Shown here: positions 54,902-64,000 of the stretch, one piece after another
Numbering within the stretch: the stretch's first letter is position 1
Layout of the letters: each line of letters starts with the position of its first letter
Assembly (NCBI GenBank): GCA_022071945.1
Contig: JAJVIN010000005.1
Location: 1-64,000, forward strand
Direction: 5' to 3'
Source of the DNA: Thermoanaerobaculia bacterium
GTDB lineage: Bacteria; Acidobacteriota; Thermoanaerobaculia; UBA5066
DNA: 64,000 nt
The notes under the pieces: generated by a model
What the model was told of the DNA's origin: nothing
What the model saw: the letters and a program-made list of their open reading frames with translations, nothing else
Database searches by the model: none
Made by a program: the position numbers and the translations under genes

Positions 54902-56599
54902 GTGTCTGACCAGCTTCCCGGTGAACCGGGCTTCTCTTCCCTCGGCCTCGACTCTCGCCTCCTTTCCGCTCTCGTCACTCTCGGCTACGAGGAACCCACG
55001 CCGATCCAGATGCAGGCCATCCCGCCCCTGCTGGAAAAGCGGGACCTTCTCGCGCAGGCCGCCACGGGAACCGGCAAGACGGCGGCATTCGCACTTCCGA
55101 TGCTGCACCGGCTCTCCCTCGAGAGAGAGGGGAGCAATGCGGTCTTCGGCCTCATCCTCGTGCCAACCCGCGAGCTCGCCATGCAGGTCTCAGAGGCCGT
55201 CCACCGCTACGGCAAGGAGCTCGGCGTGCGCGTGCTGGCCGTCTACGGCGGAGCCTCGATGGGCCTGCAGCTGCGCGCGCTCACCCGCGGCGTCGACGTC
55301 GTCGTCGCCACGCCGGGCCGCGCCGTCGACCACATCCGCCGCGGGAGCCTTTCCCTGACGGCCGTGGAGCTCGTCGTCCTCGACGAGGCCGACGAGATGC
55401 TCGACATGGGGTTCCAGGAAGACCTCGAGGCCATCCTCGACGCGACGCCCGCCGGACGGCCGATGGCCCTCTTCTCGGCCACCCTTCCCTCGAGAATCAC
55501 GGGCCTCGCCGGCCGCCACCTCACCGATCCGGTCTCGATCAGGATCCAGGCGAAGCCGTCCGCCGGCACGGCTGGCGAGGCACGGGGGAGAATCCGCCAA
55601 ACGGCCTACGTCGTACCGCGCGCGCACAAGCTCGCCGCGCTTTCCCGGATACTCGACATCGAGGGGCCTTCCTCGACCATCGTCTTCTGCCGGACCCGGA
55701 CCGAGGTCGACCAGCTCACGGAAACCCTCAACGCCCGGGGTCACCGGGCGGAGGCTCTCCACGGCGGGTTCTCGCAGGAGCAGAGGGACCGGGTGATGAA
55801 GAGGTTCCGCGCGGGCACGGCCGACCTCCTCATCGCCACCGACGTCGCGGCCCGGGGTCTCGACATCGAACAGATCTCCCACGTCGTCAACTTCGACGTG
55901 CCGAGCGAACCAGACGCCTACGTGCACCGGATCGGCCGGACCGGCCGCGCCGGCCGGGAGGGGACGGCCATCACGCTCTTCGAGCCGCGGGAACAGTGGC
56001 TCCTTCGCAACATCGAGAAGGTGACGAAGCAGAGGATAGAGATCGCCCAGGTTCCGACCGTCGCCGACCTGAGGGCCCGGCGCCTCGAGTTGACGCGCGC
56101 CTCCCTCCGAGAGGCCCTCCTCGAGGGCGGCCTGGACGCCTTCCGTGTGGCCGTGGAATCCCTCGCGGAGGAGTTCGACGTCCTCGACATCGCCGCCGCG
56201 GGCGTCAAGCTCGCCCACCAGACGAGCGGGGCGACGGACGAGGAAGCGGAGATCCCCCAGATCCGGCTCTCCGTCGAGCGCCCTCTCTTCAGGGATGGCG
56301 GACCGGCCCCGGCCGGCAAGCCGGTACGTCGCGGAAAGAGATCCGCCGGTTCCGTCACGCTCTTCATCGGGGCGGGCCGCCAGGCCGGAATCCGTCCCGC
56401 GGACCTCTTCGGCGCGATCTCCAACGAGGCGAAGCTCCCCCCGGGCGCGATCGGAGCGATCGAGATCGCCGACCGCTTCTCACTTGTCGAGGTTCCCGAG
56501 GAGTTCGCAGACCGCGTCATCGCCGCCCTCAAACGGACGTCACTGCGGGGAAAGAAGGTGCCGGTCAGGCGAGAACGAGAAGACTTCGGCGGCCGGTAG
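54902..56599 (+). CDS. DEAD-box RNA helicase with DbpA-type RNA-binding domain
   Basis: This 565-residue protein has a GTG start. It has the Q motif with PTPIQMQAIPPLL, Walker A AATGTGKT (K59), VPTRELAMQV, LDEADEMLDMGF, FSATLP, the helicase-C motifs ATDVAARGLDIEQI and HRIGRTGRAGREG. A C-terminal domain (about 480-560: VTLFIGAGRQAGIRPADLFGAI, IGAIEIADRFSLVEVPEEF) matches the RRM-like DbpA/CsdA RNA-binding fold. DeaD/CsdA or DbpA roles in ribosome assembly or cold adaptation are likely. I cannot name the exact ortholog. Confidence 0.93.
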   Translation: MSDQLPGEPGFSSLGLDSRLLSALVTLGYEEPTPIQMQAIPPLLEKRDLLAQAATGTGKTAAFALPMLHRLSLEREGSNAVFGLILVPTRELAMQVSEAVHRYGKELGVRVLAVYGGASMGLQLRALTRGVDVVVATPGRAVDHIRRGSLSLTAVELVVLDEADEMLDMGFQEDLEAILDATPAGRPMALFSATLPSRITGLAGRHLTDPVSIRIQAKPSAGTAGEARGRIRQTAYVVPRAHKLAALSRILDIEGPSSTIVFCRTRTEVDQLTETLNARGHRAEALHGGFSQEQRDRVMKRFRAGTADLLIATDVAARGLDIEQISHVVNFDVPSEPDAYVHRIGRTGRAGREGTAITLFEPREQWLLRNIEKVTKQRIEIAQVPTVADLRARRLELTRASLREALLEGGLDAFRVAVESLAEEFDVLDIAAAGVKLAHQTSGATDEEAEIPQIRLSVERPLFRDGGPAPAGKPVRRGKRSAGSVTLFIGAGRQAGIRPADLFGAISNEAKLPPGAIGAIEIADRFSLVEVPEEFADRVIAALKRTSLRGKKVPVRREREDFGGR

Positions 56600-56832: not shown

Positions 56833-59547
56833 TCACTTCACGAGAGACATCCCGAGATAGCTGCCGTCGTTCGTTCCGTTGTCGTTCACGACTCCGTAGG
56901 CGAGGAACGGCCCTTCACCTTCGGCCCTCGACACCCGGGCGTATCCACTGCTCAGTCCGAACTGCCCGAGGATGCGGTTCAGCTGCGTCCACCCGCCGGC
57001 TTCGAGCCGCTGTCGCGGCAGCTCCCCGGCGAGCTTCCCCGTTCTCCCATCGAAGACCTCGATCTTCAATGTGAGGGAAGTGGAACCGGCGTTCACGACG
57101 GCGAGGTTCGAGCGGACCGCGTCGCTCTCCGCGAGCGCTTCCACCCACGCCTCGCTCTTCGCACACCTTTCCACGGGGACCGTCTCGTAGAAAAGCCCGA
57201 AGCCGCCTCCGTTCTCGCCGGGGGCGGCTGTCCGGGCCCCGGCGAACCCTTCTGTCAGTTCGCCCGCGACCCCGGTGAAGGTGACCCGGACCGCCCCGCC
57301 GTAAGACCCGCCCTTAGCCCCGATCGAGGCACCGGCCCCTCGCAAAGCCTCGTGCACGGAAGCGATGAGCTTCTGTTCCCCGGCACCCAGGGGAATCGTC
57401 AGCGACGCCTCCACGCCGGTGGTCGCCGCGTCCAGGGACTCCACGTAGACCAGCTTCACCGAGACAGCCGTGGCGGCCGGGTTCGCAAGGACGAGTTCGC
57501 TCCCGTAGACAGGCGTCTCCACCACCACCGGCAGGACCTGCACGGACGGGTTGCGGCCCGCGGGCACCATGGAAACGAAGGAGCCATCGCCCGTCACGTT
57601 GTCGTTGAACACTCCGTAGGCCACGAACGGGCCGGTACCGCTCACACGGTCCACGACGGCGTATCCCTTGGTGAGTCCCGCCCCCTTCAGCACCCTCGAG
57701 ATCTGCTTCCACTCGCCCGGGCCGAGAGTCACATCCGGAGCAAGCACTACGGGAGTTGCTCCTGGTTCTCCTGGATGGAGTGTGATCCGGAGCGTCAGGG
57801 ACTCGCTTCTTCCCGTGTTGACGACCGCCAGGTTGCTCCGGTCCGCCTCGTTCTCGCGCAACCCGAACACGCTGACCCGGGAATTCGCCAGCTCGGCCCC
57901 CGTCAGGGCGCCGTAAGACAGGCCCGCCCGGCCCGCTCCCGAGGGTGTCGTCGTTCTCGCGATCACGGATCCGGCGTCCCCCGAGGAAAGTCCCGACCAG
58001 GTGACGCGAAGCCAGCCGGCCTCGCTCCCGGAAACGACCGGGACCCCGTCCGCCGCCAGGGCGGCGACCGTGTCGGGAAGGACGATCTGCTCGCCGGGAT
58101 TCAGCACCCGGGATGTCGACCCGCCCACCGTCCCGGGAGGCTGCGCCGACGAGGAGAGGTAGGAGAGTGTGGCGGTTCCAGCCGACGTCCCCTTGTTCGT
58201 GAGCGTCAGCTCCGTCGAGAAGCGGGTCCCCCCTTCTCCGCCGACGTCGACGATGACGGGAACGACCTGTCCTGGATAGACGGCGTTCAAAACGTAATCG
58301 GCCACGATCCGCGTCGAGACGCTGTTCCAGTTCCGGGTGTTGATCGCGTAGATCTCGTGGTAGTGGCCGTCGTACGGGAAGTCCGGGATGTCGATCGCCA
58401 GGACCTCGGGCGGAATCTCCTCCTTCTTCAGCCAGTGAACCTTCACACCTGGTGAAGGCTGGATCGCCGCGATGTGGTCGAAGAAGTTCCTCGACTCCCT
58501 GGAAAATCCCGGCATGTCGACGAATCCCTCGCTCTCCTCGACCCCGATCACGAAGAAGGGCGGTTGAGTCCTCGAAGCGAACTGCTGCGGCGACGCAGCA
58601 TCGAGCACGCCCTTGCTGTTGCCGCCAAAGACCAGGTTGAAGAGCACCTTGTAGGCAGCGAGGTCCTGCGCGGAGAGCGAGAGCGGGTTCCTCACGGCAT
58701 CCGCCATGTCGAACAGTTCGTAAGCCCCGCTCATGGTCACGACGCCCTTGATCTGGGGGAACGCCAGCCCGTACTGGGAGACATAAGCCGGGTCGGTCGC
58801 GAGAAGAGACACGAGGTGTCCCCCGGCGGACTGGCCGAAGATGACGATCTTCTGCGGATCGCCCCCGTGACGGGAGATGTTCTTGACGGTCCAGGCAAAC
58901 GCCGCCGCGACGTCGTTGATGTGGTCCGGGTGCCGCGCGGTGCCTCCCGGGGGAGACAGCCGGTAGTTGATGACGACGGTCGTCATCTTGTAAGTGCCAG
59001 CGAACGTGTTTCCCAGCTCGAAATAGGTTTCCTTGGCACCCTGGGTCCAGCCGCCCCCGTGAACGAAGAAGAGAACCGGCGTCCCCGTCATCCCCCGGGG
59101 CTGATAGACATCCAGGAGGTGAGGAGTGGCCCCGTCCTCGAGGTAGGGGATGTTGAAGGCCGTGTCCACGAGATCGATGAGGTAGCTGGCCGATGTCACG
59201 GCGCTGTCCGCCATCCCGTCCTTCACCGCGATGGCCTTCACGACGGCCGACTCCGTCGTCATAGGGGTCTGGGTCGCCCCGGGGGGAACGTTTCCTGCCG
59301 AGGCGTGGTTTGCCACCCAGATGGGGGTTCCACCGAAGACGGGCGAGCTTCTCGTCGGAACGGTCCCGTCCGTCGTGAAGTGGATCGTGGCCCCGGGAGT
59401 CCCCGACGACAGCTTCACGGAGATGCCTTCGGAGTAGGTTCCGGCGGGCGGATCGACAGCCGGCGGATCCACACTCTGAGCGAGGCTCGCCGGTGAACAC
59501 CAGAATCCAGATGCGACGAGAAGGAATGCCAGCCGGACAAGCCTCAT
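56833..59547 (-). CDS. Large exported alpha/beta-hydrolase with duplicated C-terminal modules
   Basis: This is a 904-residue protein with a signal peptide (1-24, ending SLAQ). Residues about 35-125 are a chitobiase/HEX C-terminal-like sandwich (GTYSEGISVKLSS, ATIHFTTDGTVPT). Residues about 130-420 are an HSL/BD-FAE-type carboxylesterase with the oxyanion HGGG (163-166) and S240 in IFGQSAGGHLV. The last 480 residues hold two copies of a bipartite unit: a strand-rich F/YGSELxLxN block, then RSNLAVVN...GPFxAYGVxNDN...DGS. The likely substrate is an ester on a plant or microbial polymer. GGGAGG before the ATG is a good ribosome site. Confidence 0.88.
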   Translation of the reverse strand: MRLVRLAFLLVASGFWCSPASLAQSVDPPAVDPPAGTYSEGISVKLSSGTPGATIHFTTDGTVPTRSSPVFGGTPIWVANHASAGNVPPGATQTPMTTESAVVKAIAVKDGMADSAVTSASYLIDLVDTAFNIPYLEDGATPHLLDVYQPRGMTGTPVLFFVHGGGWTQGAKETYFELGNTFAGTYKMTTVVINYRLSPPGGTARHPDHINDVAAAFAWTVKNISRHGGDPQKIVIFGQSAGGHLVSLLATDPAYVSQYGLAFPQIKGVVTMSGAYELFDMADAVRNPLSLSAQDLAAYKVLFNLVFGGNSKGVLDAASPQQFASRTQPPFFVIGVEESEGFVDMPGFSRESRNFFDHIAAIQPSPGVKVHWLKKEEIPPEVLAIDIPDFPYDGHYHEIYAINTRNWNSVSTRIVADYVLNAVYPGQVVPVIVDVGGEGGTRFSTELTLTNKGTSAGTATLSYLSSSAQPPGTVGGSTSRVLNPGEQIVLPDTVAALAADGVPVVSGSEAGWLRVTWSGLSSGDAGSVIARTTTPSGAGRAGLSYGALTGAELANSRVSVFGLRENEADRSNLAVVNTGRSESLTLRITLHPGEPGATPVVLAPDVTLGPGEWKQISRVLKGAGLTKGYAVVDRVSGTGPFVAYGVFNDNVTGDGSFVSMVPAGRNPSVQVLPVVVETPVYGSELVLANPAATAVSVKLVYVESLDAATTGVEASLTIPLGAGEQKLIASVHEALRGAGASIGAKGGSYGGAVRVTFTGVAGELTEGFAGARTAAPGENGGGFGLFYETVPVERCAKSEAWVEALAESDAVRSNLAVVNAGSTSLTLKIEVFDGRTGKLAGELPRQRLEAGGWTQLNRILGQFGLSSGYARVSRAEGEGPFLAYGVVNDNGTNDGSYLGMSLVK

Positions 59548-59658
59548 GAATCCTCCCGAGCCCCACTGGGCTCCTCACGCTTTCAGGGAAGACGGACCGG
59601 AGCGAAGGCAGGTTACACGCTCCGGGTGCCGCCGCGGCGACTGGGTACGGACAGGCTA

Positions 59659-59664
59659 TAGACT
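59659..59664 (+). promoter_or_regulatory. Candidate -10 element of the M29 aminopeptidase gene (TAGACT)
   Basis: TAGACT lies within GGCTATAGACT, 58 nt before the GTG at 59723. The gene also has a proper ribosome site, so this would be a leadered transcript of about 50 nt. No clear -35 is seen. Confidence 0.35.
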
Positions 59665-59722
59665 CATCACCGGGACCTCGATCTCGAGTCCCCATCTCGC
59701 GCGAGGACGGAGGATCGCAGCC

Positions 59723-60916
59723 GTGATCGAACCGGTGATCTCCCCCGAAAGCCTGGACCGCTGGGCTCGTCTCCTGGTCGAACACTCGCTCGGCGGGGTG
59801 GCCTCCGACGACAGGGTGATGATCAAGGGCGAGCGGATCGCGTGGCCCCTCATGGAACGCATCGAGCGCGAGGTGATCGCCCGTGGCGGGACGCCGGACG
59901 TCTATCTCGTCGCGCCCAACAACGAGCGGGGACGAGTTTGGTCCGCGTCGATGGGCCGATCCGGGACCCCGGAGCAGCTGGAGCGGGTTCCGGCGTGGCA
60001 CCGGGAGCGCTACAGCTCCATGACGAAGTACGTCGAGGTCCTCGGAGCCGAGTCTCCGGAGAGCTACTCCGGCCTTTCGGCCCAGGCGTCGGCGGCCTTG
60101 GCCCGCGCGGACCGGCCGTTCGCCGACCTGAGGCTCTCGCGCCGCTGGGTCATCACGCTGTTCCCGACCCCGGCCTACGCGGCAATCGAGGGAATGTCGC
60201 TCGACGAGTACACCCAGTTCATCGTTCAGGCCGCGACGGTCGATCCGATGCCGCTCCTCTGGGCCGAGGAGAAGCTCGCGCCGTTCTTCGAAACGGGACA
60301 CAGGGTGGAGATCGACACCTTTCACCCCGGGCAAGGGCGCGAACTCCGGCTGACGATGGATCTTTCCGAATCGGTTCCGGTCATGAGCTACGGGCTGCGA
60401 AACGTCCCGGACGGCGAGATCTTCACGAGCCCTGACGCGCGCTCCGTGGAGGGTGAAATCTACCTGGACCTGCCCGTCCTGAACTCCGGCACGGACATCG
60501 CCGGGATGCACCTCGTTTTCGAGAAGGGCTGCATCACGTCGTTCTCGGCTCGCGAGGGCCAGACGCAGCTGGCGACCATCATCGGCACCGACGAGGGATC
60601 GCGCCGACTCGGAGAGTTCGCCCTCGGCATGAATCCAGGGCTGACCCGGGCGCTCAAGCACCCGCTGTTCGTGGAGAAGCTGGGCGGGACCCTCCACATC
60701 GCCATCGGCGCGAGCTACGAGAAGGGCTTCGTGAAGGATCCGTCTTCGCCCGAGGCGAGAGCCCGGATCGAGGACCTGACGGCACGCGGAGTCTTCAACC
60801 GGTCGGCCCAGCACGTCGACATCGTGGCGGACTTCCGGCCCGGCGGCTGCGGGAGACGGGTCGCGATCGACGGGCAGCCGCTCGTCGTCCGCGACGGCGT
60901 CTGGGTCCCCGGCTAG
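59723..60916 (+). CDS. M29-family aminopeptidase (AmpS/thermophilic metalloprotease)
   Basis: The protein has 397 residues from the GTG at 59723, which has GGAGGA upstream. The open frame extends left, but those residues are not family-like. M29 enzymes are double-metal aminopeptidases. Visible family blocks are VISPESLDRWARLLVEHSL, YTQFIVQAATVD, MSYGLRNVPDGEIFTSPD, the metal-ligand region GEFALGMNPG, LGGTLHIAIGASYEKGF and the C-terminal QHVDIVADF. These supply the expected Glu, His and Asp ligands. It is cytoplasmic with no signal peptide. It lies 10 nt before topB-recQ. Confidence 0.88.
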   Translation: MIEPVISPESLDRWARLLVEHSLGGVASDDRVMIKGERIAWPLMERIEREVIARGGTPDVYLVAPNNERGRVWSASMGRSGTPEQLERVPAWHRERYSSMTKYVEVLGAESPESYSGLSAQASAALARADRPFADLRLSRRWVITLFPTPAYAAIEGMSLDEYTQFIVQAATVDPMPLLWAEEKLAPFFETGHRVEIDTFHPGQGRELRLTMDLSESVPVMSYGLRNVPDGEIFTSPDARSVEGEIYLDLPVLNSGTDIAGMHLVFEKGCITSFSAREGQTQLATIIGTDEGSRRLGEFALGMNPGLTRALKHPLFVEKLGGTLHIAIGASYEKGFVKDPSSPEARARIEDLTARGVFNRSAQHVDIVADFRPGGCGRRVAIDGQPLVVRDGVWVPG

Positions 60917-60926
60917 GCGCCAGGCC

Positions 60927-63900
60927 TTGACCCAACAGCGCTCCGGAAAGAAGCGGCCGGACGTCAGCTCCGCGCCCCTCGAAGAGCCCTCGACCGGCTC
61001 CTCTTCGGTCGTCGTCGTCGCCGAAAAGCCGTCCGTGGCGCGAGATCTGGCTCGCGTTCTCGGCGCCGTCCGGCGCGGCGAGGGCTGCTTTCAGGGAAAG
61101 GGCTACACCGTGACCTGGGCGATCGGCCATCTCGTGGCCCTCGCGATGCCGCACCAGATCCGGCCCGAGTGGCAGCGCTGGTCGAAGGAGAGTCTCCCCA
61201 TCATCCCGGAGACGTGGCCCCTCGTGATCCAGGAAGAGACGAGGCCCCAGTTCGAGGTCATCAAGAGGCTCCTGACCGCCAAAGACACGAGCGAGGTGAT
61301 CTGCGCCACCGACGCGGGACGCGAGGGCGAGTTGATCTTCCGCTACATCTACGAGGCGGCGCAGAGCCACAAGCCGGTGAAGCGCCTCTGGATCTCGTCT
61401 CTCACCGACGACGCCATCCGGAAGGGATTCTCGGAGCTCAAGGCGGGAAAGGAGTTCGACCCTCTCGCGGACGCGGCCCGCGGCCGGAGCCGAGCGGACT
61501 GGCTCGTCGGGATGAACCTCTCGCGGGCCTGCACCCTCGCGTTCGGCGAGGACTTCTCCGTCGGACGCGTCCAGACGCCGACGCTCGCCCTTCTCGTCGA
61601 CCGCGAGCTCGCCATCAAGGCCTTCGTCCCCGAGGACTACCTGGAGATCGAGGCCACCTTCTCGAGCCGGGCGGGCGAACTCGCGGAGGGCTACCGCGGA
61701 ACCTACTTTCAGGGACCGGAACCGACAGCCGAGTCGAAGCGGCTCCAGGCCAAGGGTCCCCAGGCCGCCGAGGCGCGACAGATAGCGGAACGAGCCAAGA
61801 CGGGACAGGCCCGGATCGAGTCGGTCTCGTCGGAAACGCAGAAACAGGCTCCCCCGCTCTTCCACGACCTCACGGAGCTCCAGCGGCACGCGAACCGGCT
61901 CTACGGCTACACGGCGAAAAGGACGCTCGAGATCGCCCAGGCGCTCTACGAGCAGAAAAAGCTGATCAGCTATCCGAGAACGGACAGCCGACACATCTCC
62001 GAGGACGTGGCCGCGACGCTCGGCGCGATCGTCTCGGTCATAAGGACCCCTTTCGAGAAACACCTCGCCCCGGGGACCGGCGAGCGCCCGCTCGGCAAGC
62101 GCTTCGTCGACGATGCCAAGGTCTCGGACCATCACGCCATTCTGCCGACGACGGTCCCGGCTCACTCCGTCACTCTCGACCGTGACGAGGAGGCCATCTA
62201 CGGCCTCGTCTGCCGGCGCCTGCTGGCCGCCTGGCAGCCCGACCACATCACCTCCACGACCTCGGTGATCACCGCCGTCTCGGCGCCAGATGGCGGCCCC
62301 GTCGACCGCTACCACAGCACCGGGACAATGGTCGTCGCGGCCGGCTGGAAGGCGCTCGACCCGGTGGAGAAGACGAAAAAGGACGACGACAAGGGGGAAG
62401 AGCAAGTCCTCCCGCCGGGCCTGTCTCCCGGGTCCTTGCGATTCGTCCACGAGGCCGGGATTCGAGAGAAGAAAACTCGCCCGCCTCGCAGGTTCACCGA
62501 GGCCTCGCTCCTGACGGCGATGGAGACCGCGGGCAAAACCCTCGACGACAAGGCCCTCTCGGACGCCATGAGGGATTCGGGGCTCGGGACACCCGCGACA
62601 CGAGCCGAGATCATCGAGAACCTCATCAAGCGGCTCTATGTCGAGAGGAAAGGGAAGTCCCTGTCGGCCACGCCGAAGGGGATCTCCCTCATCGAGAAGG
62701 TCCACCCCGAGGTGAAGAGCCCCGCTCTCACGGGTGACTGGGAGCTTCGCCTCAAGAGGATCCAGGAGAAGAAGGCGAGCCTCGGGGACTTCATGAACGG
62801 AATCGAGGCGTTCGTGAAAAAGGTCCTCGGCGAGATGTTCGGCTCACCTTCGACATCCGGACAGCGGCGGCCGCTGCCCCCACCTTCCAACGGGCCGCTG
62901 CCTCCTCCACCCATGGTCGCGACGGCGCGAAACGAGACTCCGGAAGGGCCCCGGAGCGCTCGTACAGTGGTCTCGGGACAGGACCTCGGGACCCTGCTCA
63001 GGGACCGGTTCCGCTTGCCATCGTTCCGCCCTCACCAGGAAGCGGTGTGCCGCGCCGTGACCGCGGGCAAGGACGTCCTTCTCGTCATGCCGACGGGAGC
63101 CGGGAAGTCCCTCTGCTACCAGCTGCCGGGAATCGCCCGGGGCGGAACCACCCTCGTCATCTCGCCCCTCATCGCGCTCATGGAAGACCAGGTCGCCAAG
63201 CTTCAGGAGCAGGGCTTTGTGGCCGAGCGGATTCACTCCGGCCGCGACCGGCTCTCGTCACGAAAAGTCTGCTTCGACTACCTCGAGGGAACCCTCGACT
63301 TCCTCTACATCGCTCCCGAGAGACTGAGCGTTCCCGGCTTTCCCGAGATGCTGGCCAAGCGTCCCCCGGTTCTCGTCGCGGTCGACGAGGCCCACTGCAT
63401 CTCGCAGTGGGGGCACGATTTCAGACCCGACTACCGGATGCTCAACCGCTGGCTCCCCTCGCTCCGGCCCGCCCCGGTGATCGCCCTGACGGCGACGGCC
63501 ACGCCCCGCGTGCAGGACGACATCGCCGAACAGCTCGGACTCGTCCGGCCGATCCGGTCGATCAGGGGCTTCCGCCGGGACAACATCGGGATCGAGATCA
63601 CGCGGATGGCACGCTCGGCGCGCCCGGAAGCGGTCGCGACCCTTCTCCGGGATCCCGCCAGGCGGCCTGCCATCATCTACGCGCCGTCTCGAAAGGAGGC
63701 CGACGCGCTCGCCGTCGAGCTTCGCCCGTCCTTCTCGGCCGCCGCCTACCACGCGGGGATGACGGCCCCCGAGCGCGACCGGGTACAGAACGCCTTCCTT
63801 TCGGGGCAGCTCGAGGTGATCGTCGCGACCATCGCCTTCGGCATGGGAGTCGACAAACCGGACGTCAGGACCGTGATCCACACGGGCCTCTCGGGCTCGG

Positions 63901-64000
63901 TCGAGGGCTACTACCAGGAGATCGGACGCGCCGGCCGCGACGGGAAGCCCTCGAGGGCCGTCCTCCTCTACTCGTGGGCCGACCGCAAGCTCCACGAGTT
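60927..64000 (+). CDS. DNA topoisomerase III fused to RecQ helicase (3' end cut by window)
   Basis: One frame, open without a stop for 1024 codons, runs off the window. The start is taken as TTG at 60927. Residues about 28-635 are a full type IA topoisomerase III: Toprim VVVVAEKPSVARDL (E33), CATDAGREGELIF (D129), FSVGRVQTPTLALLVDREL, catalytic Y349 in LISYPRTDSRH and DHHAILPTT. A Pro-rich linker spans about 638-675. From about 680 comes RecQ: MPTGAGKSLCYQLPG (K727), VDEAHCISQWGHDFRPDYR (D820), LTATATP, TIAFGMGVDKPDVR and QEIGRAGRDG. The RQC/HRDC part would lie beyond the edge. RecQ and Topo III normally cooperate as separate proteins to unlink DNA. Confidence 0.93.
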   Translation, partial: MTQQRSGKKRPDVSSAPLEEPSTGSSSVVVVAEKPSVARDLARVLGAVRRGEGCFQGKGYTVTWAIGHLVALAMPHQIRPEWQRWSKESLPIIPETWPLVIQEETRPQFEVIKRLLTAKDTSEVICATDAGREGELIFRYIYEAAQSHKPVKRLWISSLTDDAIRKGFSELKAGKEFDPLADAARGRSRADWLVGMNLSRACTLAFGEDFSVGRVQTPTLALLVDRELAIKAFVPEDYLEIEATFSSRAGELAEGYRGTYFQGPEPTAESKRLQAKGPQAAEARQIAERAKTGQARIESVSSETQKQAPPLFHDLTELQRHANRLYGYTAKRTLEIAQALYEQKKLISYPRTDSRHISEDVAATLGAIVSVIRTPFEKHLAPGTGERPLGKRFVDDAKVSDHHAILPTTVPAHSVTLDRDEEAIYGLVCRRLLAAWQPDHITSTTSVITAVSAPDGGPVDRYHSTGTMVVAAGWKALDPVEKTKKDDDKGEEQVLPPGLSPGSLRFVHEAGIREKKTRPPRRFTEASLLTAMETAGKTLDDKALSDAMRDSGLGTPATRAEIIENLIKRLYVERKGKSLSATPKGISLIEKVHPEVKSPALTGDWELRLKRIQEKKASLGDFMNGIEAFVKKVLGEMFGSPSTSGQRRPLPPPSNGPLPPPPMVATARNETPEGPRSARTVVSGQDLGTLLRDRFRLPSFRPHQEAVCRAVTAGKDVLLVMPTGAGKSLCYQLPGIARGGTTLVISPLIALMEDQVAKLQEQGFVAERIHSGRDRLSSRKVCFDYLEGTLDFLYIAPERLSVPGFPEMLAKRPPVLVAVDEAHCISQWGHDFRPDYRMLNRWLPSLRPAPVIALTATATPRVQDDIAEQLGLVRPIRSIRGFRRDNIGIEITRMARSARPEAVATLLRDPARRPAIIYAPSRKEADALAVELRPSFSAAAYHAGMTAPERDRVQNAFLSGQLEVIVATIAFGMGVDKPDVRTVIHTGLSGSVEGYYQEIGRAGRDGKPSRAVLLYSWADRKLHE

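Follow-up and report, generated by a model that had tools for sequence, protein, structure and literature searches.

A single-frame fusion of topoisomerase III and RecQ helicase genes in Acidobacteriota and two further phyla

In eukaryotes, the BLM/Sgs1-Topo III alpha(-RMI1) dissolvasome brings together a RecQ-family helicase and a type IA topoisomerase III, and whether the two catalytic domains touch was still an open question in 2014 (PMC4109787, in the passages drawn on here). In bacteria the RecQ-Topo III partnership is disputed: a 2026 paper on E. coli states, in the part cited here, that RecG and not RecQ acts with Topo III, and that no physical interaction between RecQ and Topo III has been observed there (PMC13244152). 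A covalent union of a type IA topoisomerase with an SF2 helicase-like module is described for reverse gyrase (PMC8185306, in the excerpt used), and the gene analysed here likewise encodes such a union. It belongs to a family of fused genes, which makes the question of the bacterial partnership testable.

The fusion gene and its domains

The window is the whole stretch of DNA that was analysed, 64,000 nucleotides (G000:C4:1-64000); the contig beyond position 64000 was used to complete the gene. The topB-recQ fusion gene is a single uninterrupted frame on the forward strand, running from a TTG at 60927 to a TGA that ends at contig position 64724, and encodes 1265 amino acids. Its part in the window (60927..64000) comprises codons 1-1024 plus 2 bases, and the claim of an earlier note that this part is free of stops and frame changes is borne out. 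The TTG is the first ATG, GTG or TTG past the upstream stop, and a start-codon scan of the frame found no other between it and the Toprim core. The frame stays open for 49 codons upstream of the TTG (1314 codons in all), so the exact start is one that we infer. The upstream neighbour, a Peptidase_M29-type gene (59546..60916, forward strand), stops 10 bases ahead of the TTG and is context only, lying outside the fusion. Scans of the window for tRNA genes and Rfam families found nothing. Every full block of 300 bases counted from 60927 has a GC3 of 0.79-0.92, and the junction shows no break. Because GC3 is unbroken and many independent genomes carry the same fusion as a single frame, an assembly artefact or a missed stop at the junction is ruled out.

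All domains lie on the forward strand. The Toprim domain (61011..61400, residues 29-158) keeps the acidic residues Glu33, Asp129 and Glu133 and has Gly131 where a DxD motif normally has its second Asp, a substitution shared by every row compared (57 fused, 22 stand-alone). It is followed by the Topoisomerase III catalytic core (Topoisom_bac, 61455..62795, residues 177-623), for which the model of a relative has the fold of E. coli Topo III. Alignment and residue comparison place the catalytic tyrosine, Tyr349, in the motif SYPRTDSR (codon 61971..61973), the same residue that the earlier note had named along with the type IA motifs, and the core is complete. The curated TopB family cut-offs are passed (NF005829, 665.3 bits against 597; TIGR01056, 576.5 against 515.75). 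A stretch of similar length aligns with the decatenation-loop region of E. coli TopB, with low confidence in the relative's model (244-250). The linker, described earlier as Pro-rich, is Pro/Ala-rich and occupies 62847..62978 (about residues 641-684), the matching stretch again being of low confidence in the relative's model.

The RecQ half begins with helicase domain 1 (DEAD, 63027..63515, residues 701-863), which has the Walker A Lys727, a DEAH at 820-823 and the aromatic-rich loop at 826-836. Helicase domain 2 (Helicase_C, 63627..63944, residues 901-1006) contains motif VI (997-1006), and the RecQ_Zn_bind domain covers residues 1099-1145. The RecQ motifs expected after the linker are indeed found: motifs 0, I and II, the aromatic-rich loop, motif VI and the four zinc cysteines are all present. 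The family score is over its cut-off (TIGR00614, 382.1 bits against 219.8) and the equivalog score is under it (TIGR01389, 433.6 against 640.2); judged by these profiles, the RecQ half is a RecQ family member and not an E. coli-type equivalog. Following the contig past 64000, as had been proposed, leads through roughly 60 inserted residues after helicase domain 2 (by alignment with E. coli RecQ), the zinc module, and a C-terminal region for which a winged-helix-like domain is predicted in a relative's model, to the stop at 64724. No HRDC was found by a domain search over the full protein. This domain is common in RecQ helicases, though not universal, and it is present in 42 of the 51 fused genes that are uncut at their 3' end.

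The structure model of a relative matches the E. coli Topo III and RecQ structures; its pTM is 0.51, and it has no predicted contact between the two halves. The active-site residues are invariant in all 57 rows of fused TopB and, for RecQ, in the 56 fused rows with more than 300 aligned residues, a count that leaves aside the remnants in G275 and G312 (fewer than 300 residues). In five pairs, dN/dS is 0.17-0.32 for TopB, 0.11-0.27 for RecQ and 0.23-0.69 for the linker. By these ratios both halves are strongly constrained, unlike the linker.

Distribution and history of the fusion

The earlier note had read the two enzymes as one polypeptide, and this natural fusion does recur in one frame in many genomes. 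Genome searches place both halves in a single frame in three phyla: at least 9 of 396 genomes searched in Acidobacteriota (the phylum of the source), at least 32 of 282 in Myxococcota, and at least 3 of 191 in Bdellovibrionota, the first two counts being lower bounds from the matches listed. The collected set comprises 59 distinct fused genes. Samples of three other phyla yielded no fusion; two of these empty searches had no positive control of their own, and fusions were recovered elsewhere at the same threshold with the same query. Long frames or partial matches in eight further genomes (G410, G212, G557, G454, G564, G469, G686 and G563) were considered, and none has both halves. RecQ halves at contig ends in G009 and G010 may be cut fusions, and for neither was a TopB half of this kind listed. 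Among 50,697 phage records none covers 80% of the query, nor does any of the 5000 plasmid records examined. The 10 flanking proteins at 6 loci share no pattern, except for glycosyltransferases at two loci.

A search of the source genome (96% complete) found no second Topo III or RecQ, and thus neither of the stand-alone genes whose absence had been put forward as a check. Its other type IA topoisomerase is TopA, and recG is present. Beside TopA and RecG, the fusion is probably the sole Topo III and sole RecQ of this genome. Some other fusion genomes have extra copies: G003 has a second RecQ; G422 has a RecQ and two more TopB-like frames; further RecQs occur in G425 and G426; G420 and G423 have a weaker RecQ-like frame; and G568, G523 and G593 each have a second TopB.

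The gene trees of TopB and RecQ have many groups in common. Both were made by a quick method, with midpoint rooting and no bootstrap, and several rows are long; the sets leave out 10 short or duplicated loci and keep only 12 of loci L050-L112, and a further 6 near-identical rows are missing from the RecQ tree. All fused TopB halves fall into one clade. In the fusion lineage, the RecQ half also occurs as a stand-alone protein, nested many times (47 of 105 clade rows are alone), and therefore does not need the fused topoisomerase. Since the fused TopB is one clade and the lone RecQ is nested many times, the trees suggest one old fusion, followed by spread and repeated loss of TopB.

Among the listed matches of at least 50% identity, candidates for a free TopB of the fused clade in G280, G400 and G518 are contig-end cuts. 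A fourth candidate (G424:C15) has a TopB N-terminal part that runs into an unrelated frame and is probably a misassembly; the joined frame we take, by eye, to be dapA-like. Short fragments in G422 and G426 lie outside this assessment.

In G275 and G312, two genomes of one family, the helicase part is reduced to domain 1, and a full-length RecQ is encoded elsewhere. A fuller account, to which we would give somewhat less than even weight, is that a single ancient fusion gave rise to a bacterial dissolvasome on one chain, which then spread among Acidobacteriota, Myxococcota and Bdellovibrionota; that RecQ was repeatedly freed from it, while TopB of this lineage always retained at least part of RecQ; and that the domain 1 remnant, presumably dead as an ATPase, remains under selection, as though the topoisomerase required the RecQ fold for docking or DNA binding. 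Such half-helicase remnants may reveal which part of RecQ the topoisomerase needs.

Proposed function and alternative readings

We consider it rather likely that the fusion is one bifunctional enzyme, a tethered Topo III and RecQ or one-chain "dissolvasome", both enzymes being encoded, to judge from the one reading frame, as one physical unit. The N-terminal topoisomerase III would cut strands via Tyr349, and a flexible Pro/Ala-rich tether would join it to the C-terminal RecQ helicase. RecQ would unwind or migrate joined DNA (double Holliday junctions, D-loops or converging forks), and the tethered topoisomerase would pass single strands in the DNA opened by RecQ. Joined molecules would be unlinked without crossing over, as is done by the separate BLM/Sgs1-Topo III complex, with the tether standing in for the protein-protein contact used by eukaryotes. 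We infer that this would be a fixed 1:1 strand-passage machine. In support of this proposal, evolution has joined the two enzymes in three phyla with both active sites intact, which argues for a partnership in those lineages. The earlier note had regarded RecQ and Topo III as a conserved functional pair, E. coli included; for E. coli the pairing is disputed (PMC13244152, in the passages cited).

It is worth adding what was counted against a one-chain dissolvasome, namely that RecQ is often alone, that the halves have no predicted contact, and that several fusion genomes have extra copies of TopB or RecQ. Also counted here is the report, in the same portion of PMC13244152, of RecG rather than RecQ with Topo III in E. 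coli, recG being present in the source genome too.

The same two-enzyme chemistry could instead serve fork convergence or chromosome decatenation, and not the dissolution of recombination intermediates; RecQ would unwind the final segment where forks converge, and the daughters would be unlinked by Topo III. E. coli RecQ and Topo III are said to resolve converging forks in vitro, in work by Suski and Marians from 2008, and the intact active sites of the fusion would suit this role. The substrate cannot be told from sequence; against this reading, topB cooperates with recG and not with recQ in the completion of replication in E. coli, in the part of PMC13244152 cited, and we regard it as unlikely.

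Less probable again is that two uncoupled enzymes share a chain, the fusion setting only their expression ratio or location while the halves work independently. Linker length ranges between 2 and 297 residues in 57 fusions (7 partial or duplicate loci being left out), RecQ is repeatedly alone, and the pTM is low, all of which would fit. If the fusion were no more than a convenience, however, breaks might be expected to free TopB as well as RecQ, and in the fused TopB clade no free complete gene was found, barring the contig-end cuts and the one probable misassembly.

An enzyme like reverse gyrase, in which an SF2 helicase-like ATPase drives ATP-dependent positive supercoiling by a type IA topoisomerase, has the same general fusion idea in its favour (PMC8185306, in the excerpt used), but it is very improbable here, the order being reversed, with the topoisomerase first and of Topo III type. 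The model for reverse gyrase, TIGR01054, scores 84.7 bits against a cut-off of 471.7. Least credible of all is a component of anti-phage defence, DpdF, as labelled by the PADLOC profile PDLC02865. Both halves match this profile, TopB with 807.3 bits and RecQ with 734, for an overall 1543.8 bits. Against this reading, the curated DpdF family NF041063 scores 196 bits against a cut-off of 550, and the 10 neighbouring proteins scanned against PADLOC-DB include no other Dpd component, the only matches being a subtilase and a DEAD-box RNA helicase, the latter to helicase models. Obg, phosphofructokinase and a dimethylargininase-like protein are among the neighbours with a name, and the flanking proteins at five other fusion loci, by Pfam only, have no Dpd-type pattern.

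Comparison with known systems

PDLC02865 has the same architecture as the fusion, with the TopB half at 23-664 and the RecQ half at 747-1304 of its 1499 positions, so the builders of the database had already clustered such proteins; the differences are its DpdF label and the curated DpdF family, whose cut-off the fusion does not reach. The architecture is therefore already in PADLOC-DB under a DpdF label, though no paper describing the fusion was found. This refers to the portion of the open-licence PubMed Central literature searched, including a search for DpdF; InterPro and UniProt lay outside the search, and earlier notice elsewhere is possible.

Reverse gyrase has the opposite domain order. 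The fusion differs from it further in having a true RecQ with a zinc module and a topoisomerase of Topo III type; its score with the model for reverse gyrase is far under the cut-off. Each half aligns over the core with E. coli TopB or RecQ, in sequence and in the relative's model. The E. coli proteins have separate genes and no reported contact (PMC13244152, in the passages cited), whereas here they are fused, and in comparison with E. coli RecQ the fusion has about 60 extra residues before the zinc module and lacks HRDC. The BLM/Sgs1 dissolvasome consists of separate proteins with RMI1, while the fusion, known from sequence, is one chain with the topoisomerase first, and offers a single-polypeptide system for studying dissolution.

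The fused gene and its domains

The reading from 60927 to 64000 as one open frame holds: there is no stop, and the frame continues across the end of the window. It runs on the forward strand from TTG 60927, the earliest possible start downstream of the preceding stop, to a TGA whose last base is contig position 64724, encoding 1265 residues. A frame scan found no further ATG, GTG or TTG between TTG 60927 and the Toprim core. Pfam identifies Toprim (residues 29-158), Topoisom_bac (177-623), DEAD (701-863), Helicase_C (901-1006) and RecQ_Zn_bind (1099-1145). With NCBIfam models, the fusion scores 665.3 bits for NF005829 (topoisomerase 3; cut-off 597), 576.5 bits for TIGR01056 (topB; cut-off 515.75) and 382.1 bits for TIGR00614 (RecQ family; cut-off 219.8), and is below the cut-off of the stricter RecQ equivalog TIGR01389 (433.6 vs 640.2 bits).

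The core of the TopB half aligns with E. coli TopB and that of the RecQ half with E. coli RecQ. Compared with E. coli RecQ, the fusion has about 60 extra residues between helicase domain 2 and the zinc module, predicted in the model of a relative, L047, to form three helices and two short strands. The earlier note expected an RQC/HRDC end beyond the window; RecQ_Zn_bind is there, but an HRDC domain was not found in the window's fusion (L011:1927-5724). HRDC is present in 42 of the 51 fused genes with an uncut 3' end; where most fused genes have it, the window's fusion has a short basic tail.

The structure modelled was that of L047 (1195 residues, 32-row alignment), with a mean pLDDT of 85.1, a pTM of 0.51 and a low-confidence stretch at 624-639, inside the linker. 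For its N-terminal half the match is E. coli Topo III (1i7d; Z 35.7, 583 residues, 2.5 A), and for its C-terminal half the RecQ structures 1oyw (Z 35.2, 424 residues, 4.5 A) and 4q48 (Z 40.3, 446 residues, 7.7 A). Because pTM is low, the relative placement of the halves is not predicted, and the model neither shows nor excludes contact between them.

The assembly (6.17 Mb, 69 contigs, 96% complete) contains two type IA topoisomerases in a PF01131 search, namely the fusion and an 893-residue frame on contig C14, which is TopA (TIGR01051, 745 bits, cut-off 456.4). The fusion is the best match to the RecQ model (404.6 bits), and the second-best place (84.5 bits) is a DEAD-box RNA helicase at 54902-56596. 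Since neither search shows another, the genome, within the limits of a draft, probably has no Topo III and no RecQ besides the fusion; the earlier note had proposed a check for stand-alone copies. RecG is also encoded (664.9 bits with the recG model). A second recG-model match (377.1 bits; G000:C18:47987-49138, on another contig) lies inside a 1176-residue frame that we take to be probably Mfd.

Occurrence and conservation of the fusion

The searches together yielded 59 distinct fused genes, two being remnants (in genomes G275 and G312). Both halves lie in one frame in 10 of 60 relatives (frames checked); the remaining TopB-half matches listed have 28-37% identity, with E 2.6e-35 or weaker, values similar to those of TopA in the window's genome. 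In the window's own phylum, Acidobacteriota, at least 9 of 396 genomes have fused frames; the counts are at least 32 of 282 in the Myxococcota sample (phylum of a Myxococcales MAG) and 3 of 191 in the Bdellovibrionota sample (phylum of a Bdellovibrionales MAG), all 44 being single stop-free frames. L124, from genome G412 of the window's phylum, has the same RecQ frame, without a difference, as L044, whose record is titled Acidobacteria. Three more fusions (G280, G400, G518) are apparently split by contig ends alone. At E <= 1e-125, the phylum of a betaproteobacterial MAG (299 genomes) gave no fusion and one TopB-only match, and those of a Nitrospira MAG (148 genomes) and a Gemmatimonadetes MAG (200 genomes) no match. 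A scan of named genomes found fusions in at least nine records, each of them titled as a MAG (Acidobacteria, Bryobacterales, Acidobacteriales, Myxococcales/Myxococcaceae, Bdellovibrionales). The sequences thus collected argue that the fusion is more than an accident.

At L233 (G424:C15:1-4000), a TopB half gives way, after its N-terminal two thirds, to an unrelated frame, and the remainder of the fusion begins at the edge of another contig; this junction is probably a misassembly. In Listeria monocytogenes NZ_CP030101.1 and NZ_LR134400.1, recQ-like and topoisomerase III-like pieces are neighbours no more than 3.5 kb apart, without being fused; in the latter record they are annotated as separate genes.

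The presence of complete topoisomerase and RecQ motifs in one protein, with residue 349 as catalytic Tyr, is borne out by the alignments. Tyr349, Pro350, Arg351, Asp129 and Glu133 show no variation across 57 fused TopB rows, nor do the Walker A Gly-Lys-Ser, DEAH and motif VI arginines across 56 fused RecQ rows (those with more than 300 aligned residues); 53 of these 56 have the four zinc cysteines, the other three being gapped there. In the DxD motif usual in type IA enzymes, Gly takes the place of the second Asp (Gly131; window 61317-61319) in 79/79 TopB rows (57 fused, 22 stand-alone), whereas E. coli TopB has Asp. Compared over five pairs of intact fusions, the TopB half has a dN/dS of 0.17-0.32 and the RecQ half one of 0.11-0.27; the linker, in which dS comes partly close to saturation, has 0.23-0.69. 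Over 57 fusions the linker has 2-297 residues (median 50) and is 46% Pro+Ala+Ser, a composition resembling that of a flexible tether.

Evolutionary history and the half-helicase remnants

In the TopB tree (79 rows), a split with support 99 separates 20 stand-alone TopBs from the 57 fused rows, with which two contig-cut halves are grouped. The RecQ tree (120 rows) has a clade of 105 rows (support 100) in which 56 are fused, 47 stand alone and 2 are cut; its starred branches force at least eight changes of state between fused and stand-alone, a count in which gain and loss are not distinguishable. Many groups are common to both trees: nine rows from the Myxococcota search (L149-L154, L158, L159, L198), eight of the window's family, its own row excluded, and L113+L114+L199, L194+L195, L140+L141 and L145+L147. 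As for the window's own row, its neighbours differ between the trees and are weakly supported in that of TopB. The trees are most simply read as a single fusion event, after which the gene spread and repeatedly lost its TopB half; the direction is taken as loss because the fused TopBs form one clade, of which no free complete member was found. Since phyla mix in the trees, the fusion would appear to have moved between them. Genomes with only a stand-alone RecQ, such as G027 and G428-G430, gave no Topo III match, and several of the Myxococcota sample combine a stand-alone RecQ of the 105-row clade with a TopB from the stand-alone side of the TopB tree.

G275 and G312, from one family of Acidobacteriota, encode TopB with a degenerate RecQ domain 1 (L215:1128-3752 and L217:928-3621, respectively): about 186 aligned residues of that domain, then a stop. 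Domain 2 with the arginine fingers is missing, EEAE replaces DEAH, and Walker A keeps Gly-Lys-Thr in an otherwise altered stretch, so that by sequence the remnant has presumably lost its ATPase activity. Compared with each other, the two remnants have a dN/dS of 0.14, and both genomes also encode, separately, a full-length RecQ that belongs to the same clade (L216, L218). Speculating from this one genome pair, the remnant may serve in docking or in binding DNA.

The DpdF label and the proposed joint activity

An unlikely alternative is that the gene is DpdF, of the Dpd anti-phage defence system. The PADLOC-DB 2.0.0 (2023) profile PDLC02865 (1499 positions), labelled DpdF, matches the TopB half of the window's fusion at positions 23-664 and the RecQ half at 747-1304. 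The fusion does not reach the cut-off of the curated DpdF family, and no other Dpd component is found among 10 neighbouring proteins. What PDLC02865 actually describes is the TopB-RecQ architecture, and annotation with it would therefore label ordinary fusion genes DpdF. Since it covers both halves, the architecture had already been clustered in a database; the literature searched on the TopB-RecQ fusion or DpdF gave no description of the fusion. These are known enzymes in a covalent arrangement for which that literature yielded no report.

RecQ is a 3'-5' helicase, and Topo III makes a transient, tyrosine-linked break through which it passes single strands. The fused enzyme would perform the helicase step and the strand-passage step in one place. 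The part of this mechanism demonstrated, at the level of the gene, is one frame, two intact active sites, their conservation and a tether-like linker. As described in PMC4109787, double Holliday junctions are dissolved by BLM together with Topo III alpha. In gene architecture, the fusions of these other phyla run counter to the situation in E. coli, for which no contact between RecQ and Topo III was observed and RecG is said to act with Topo III (PMC13244152).
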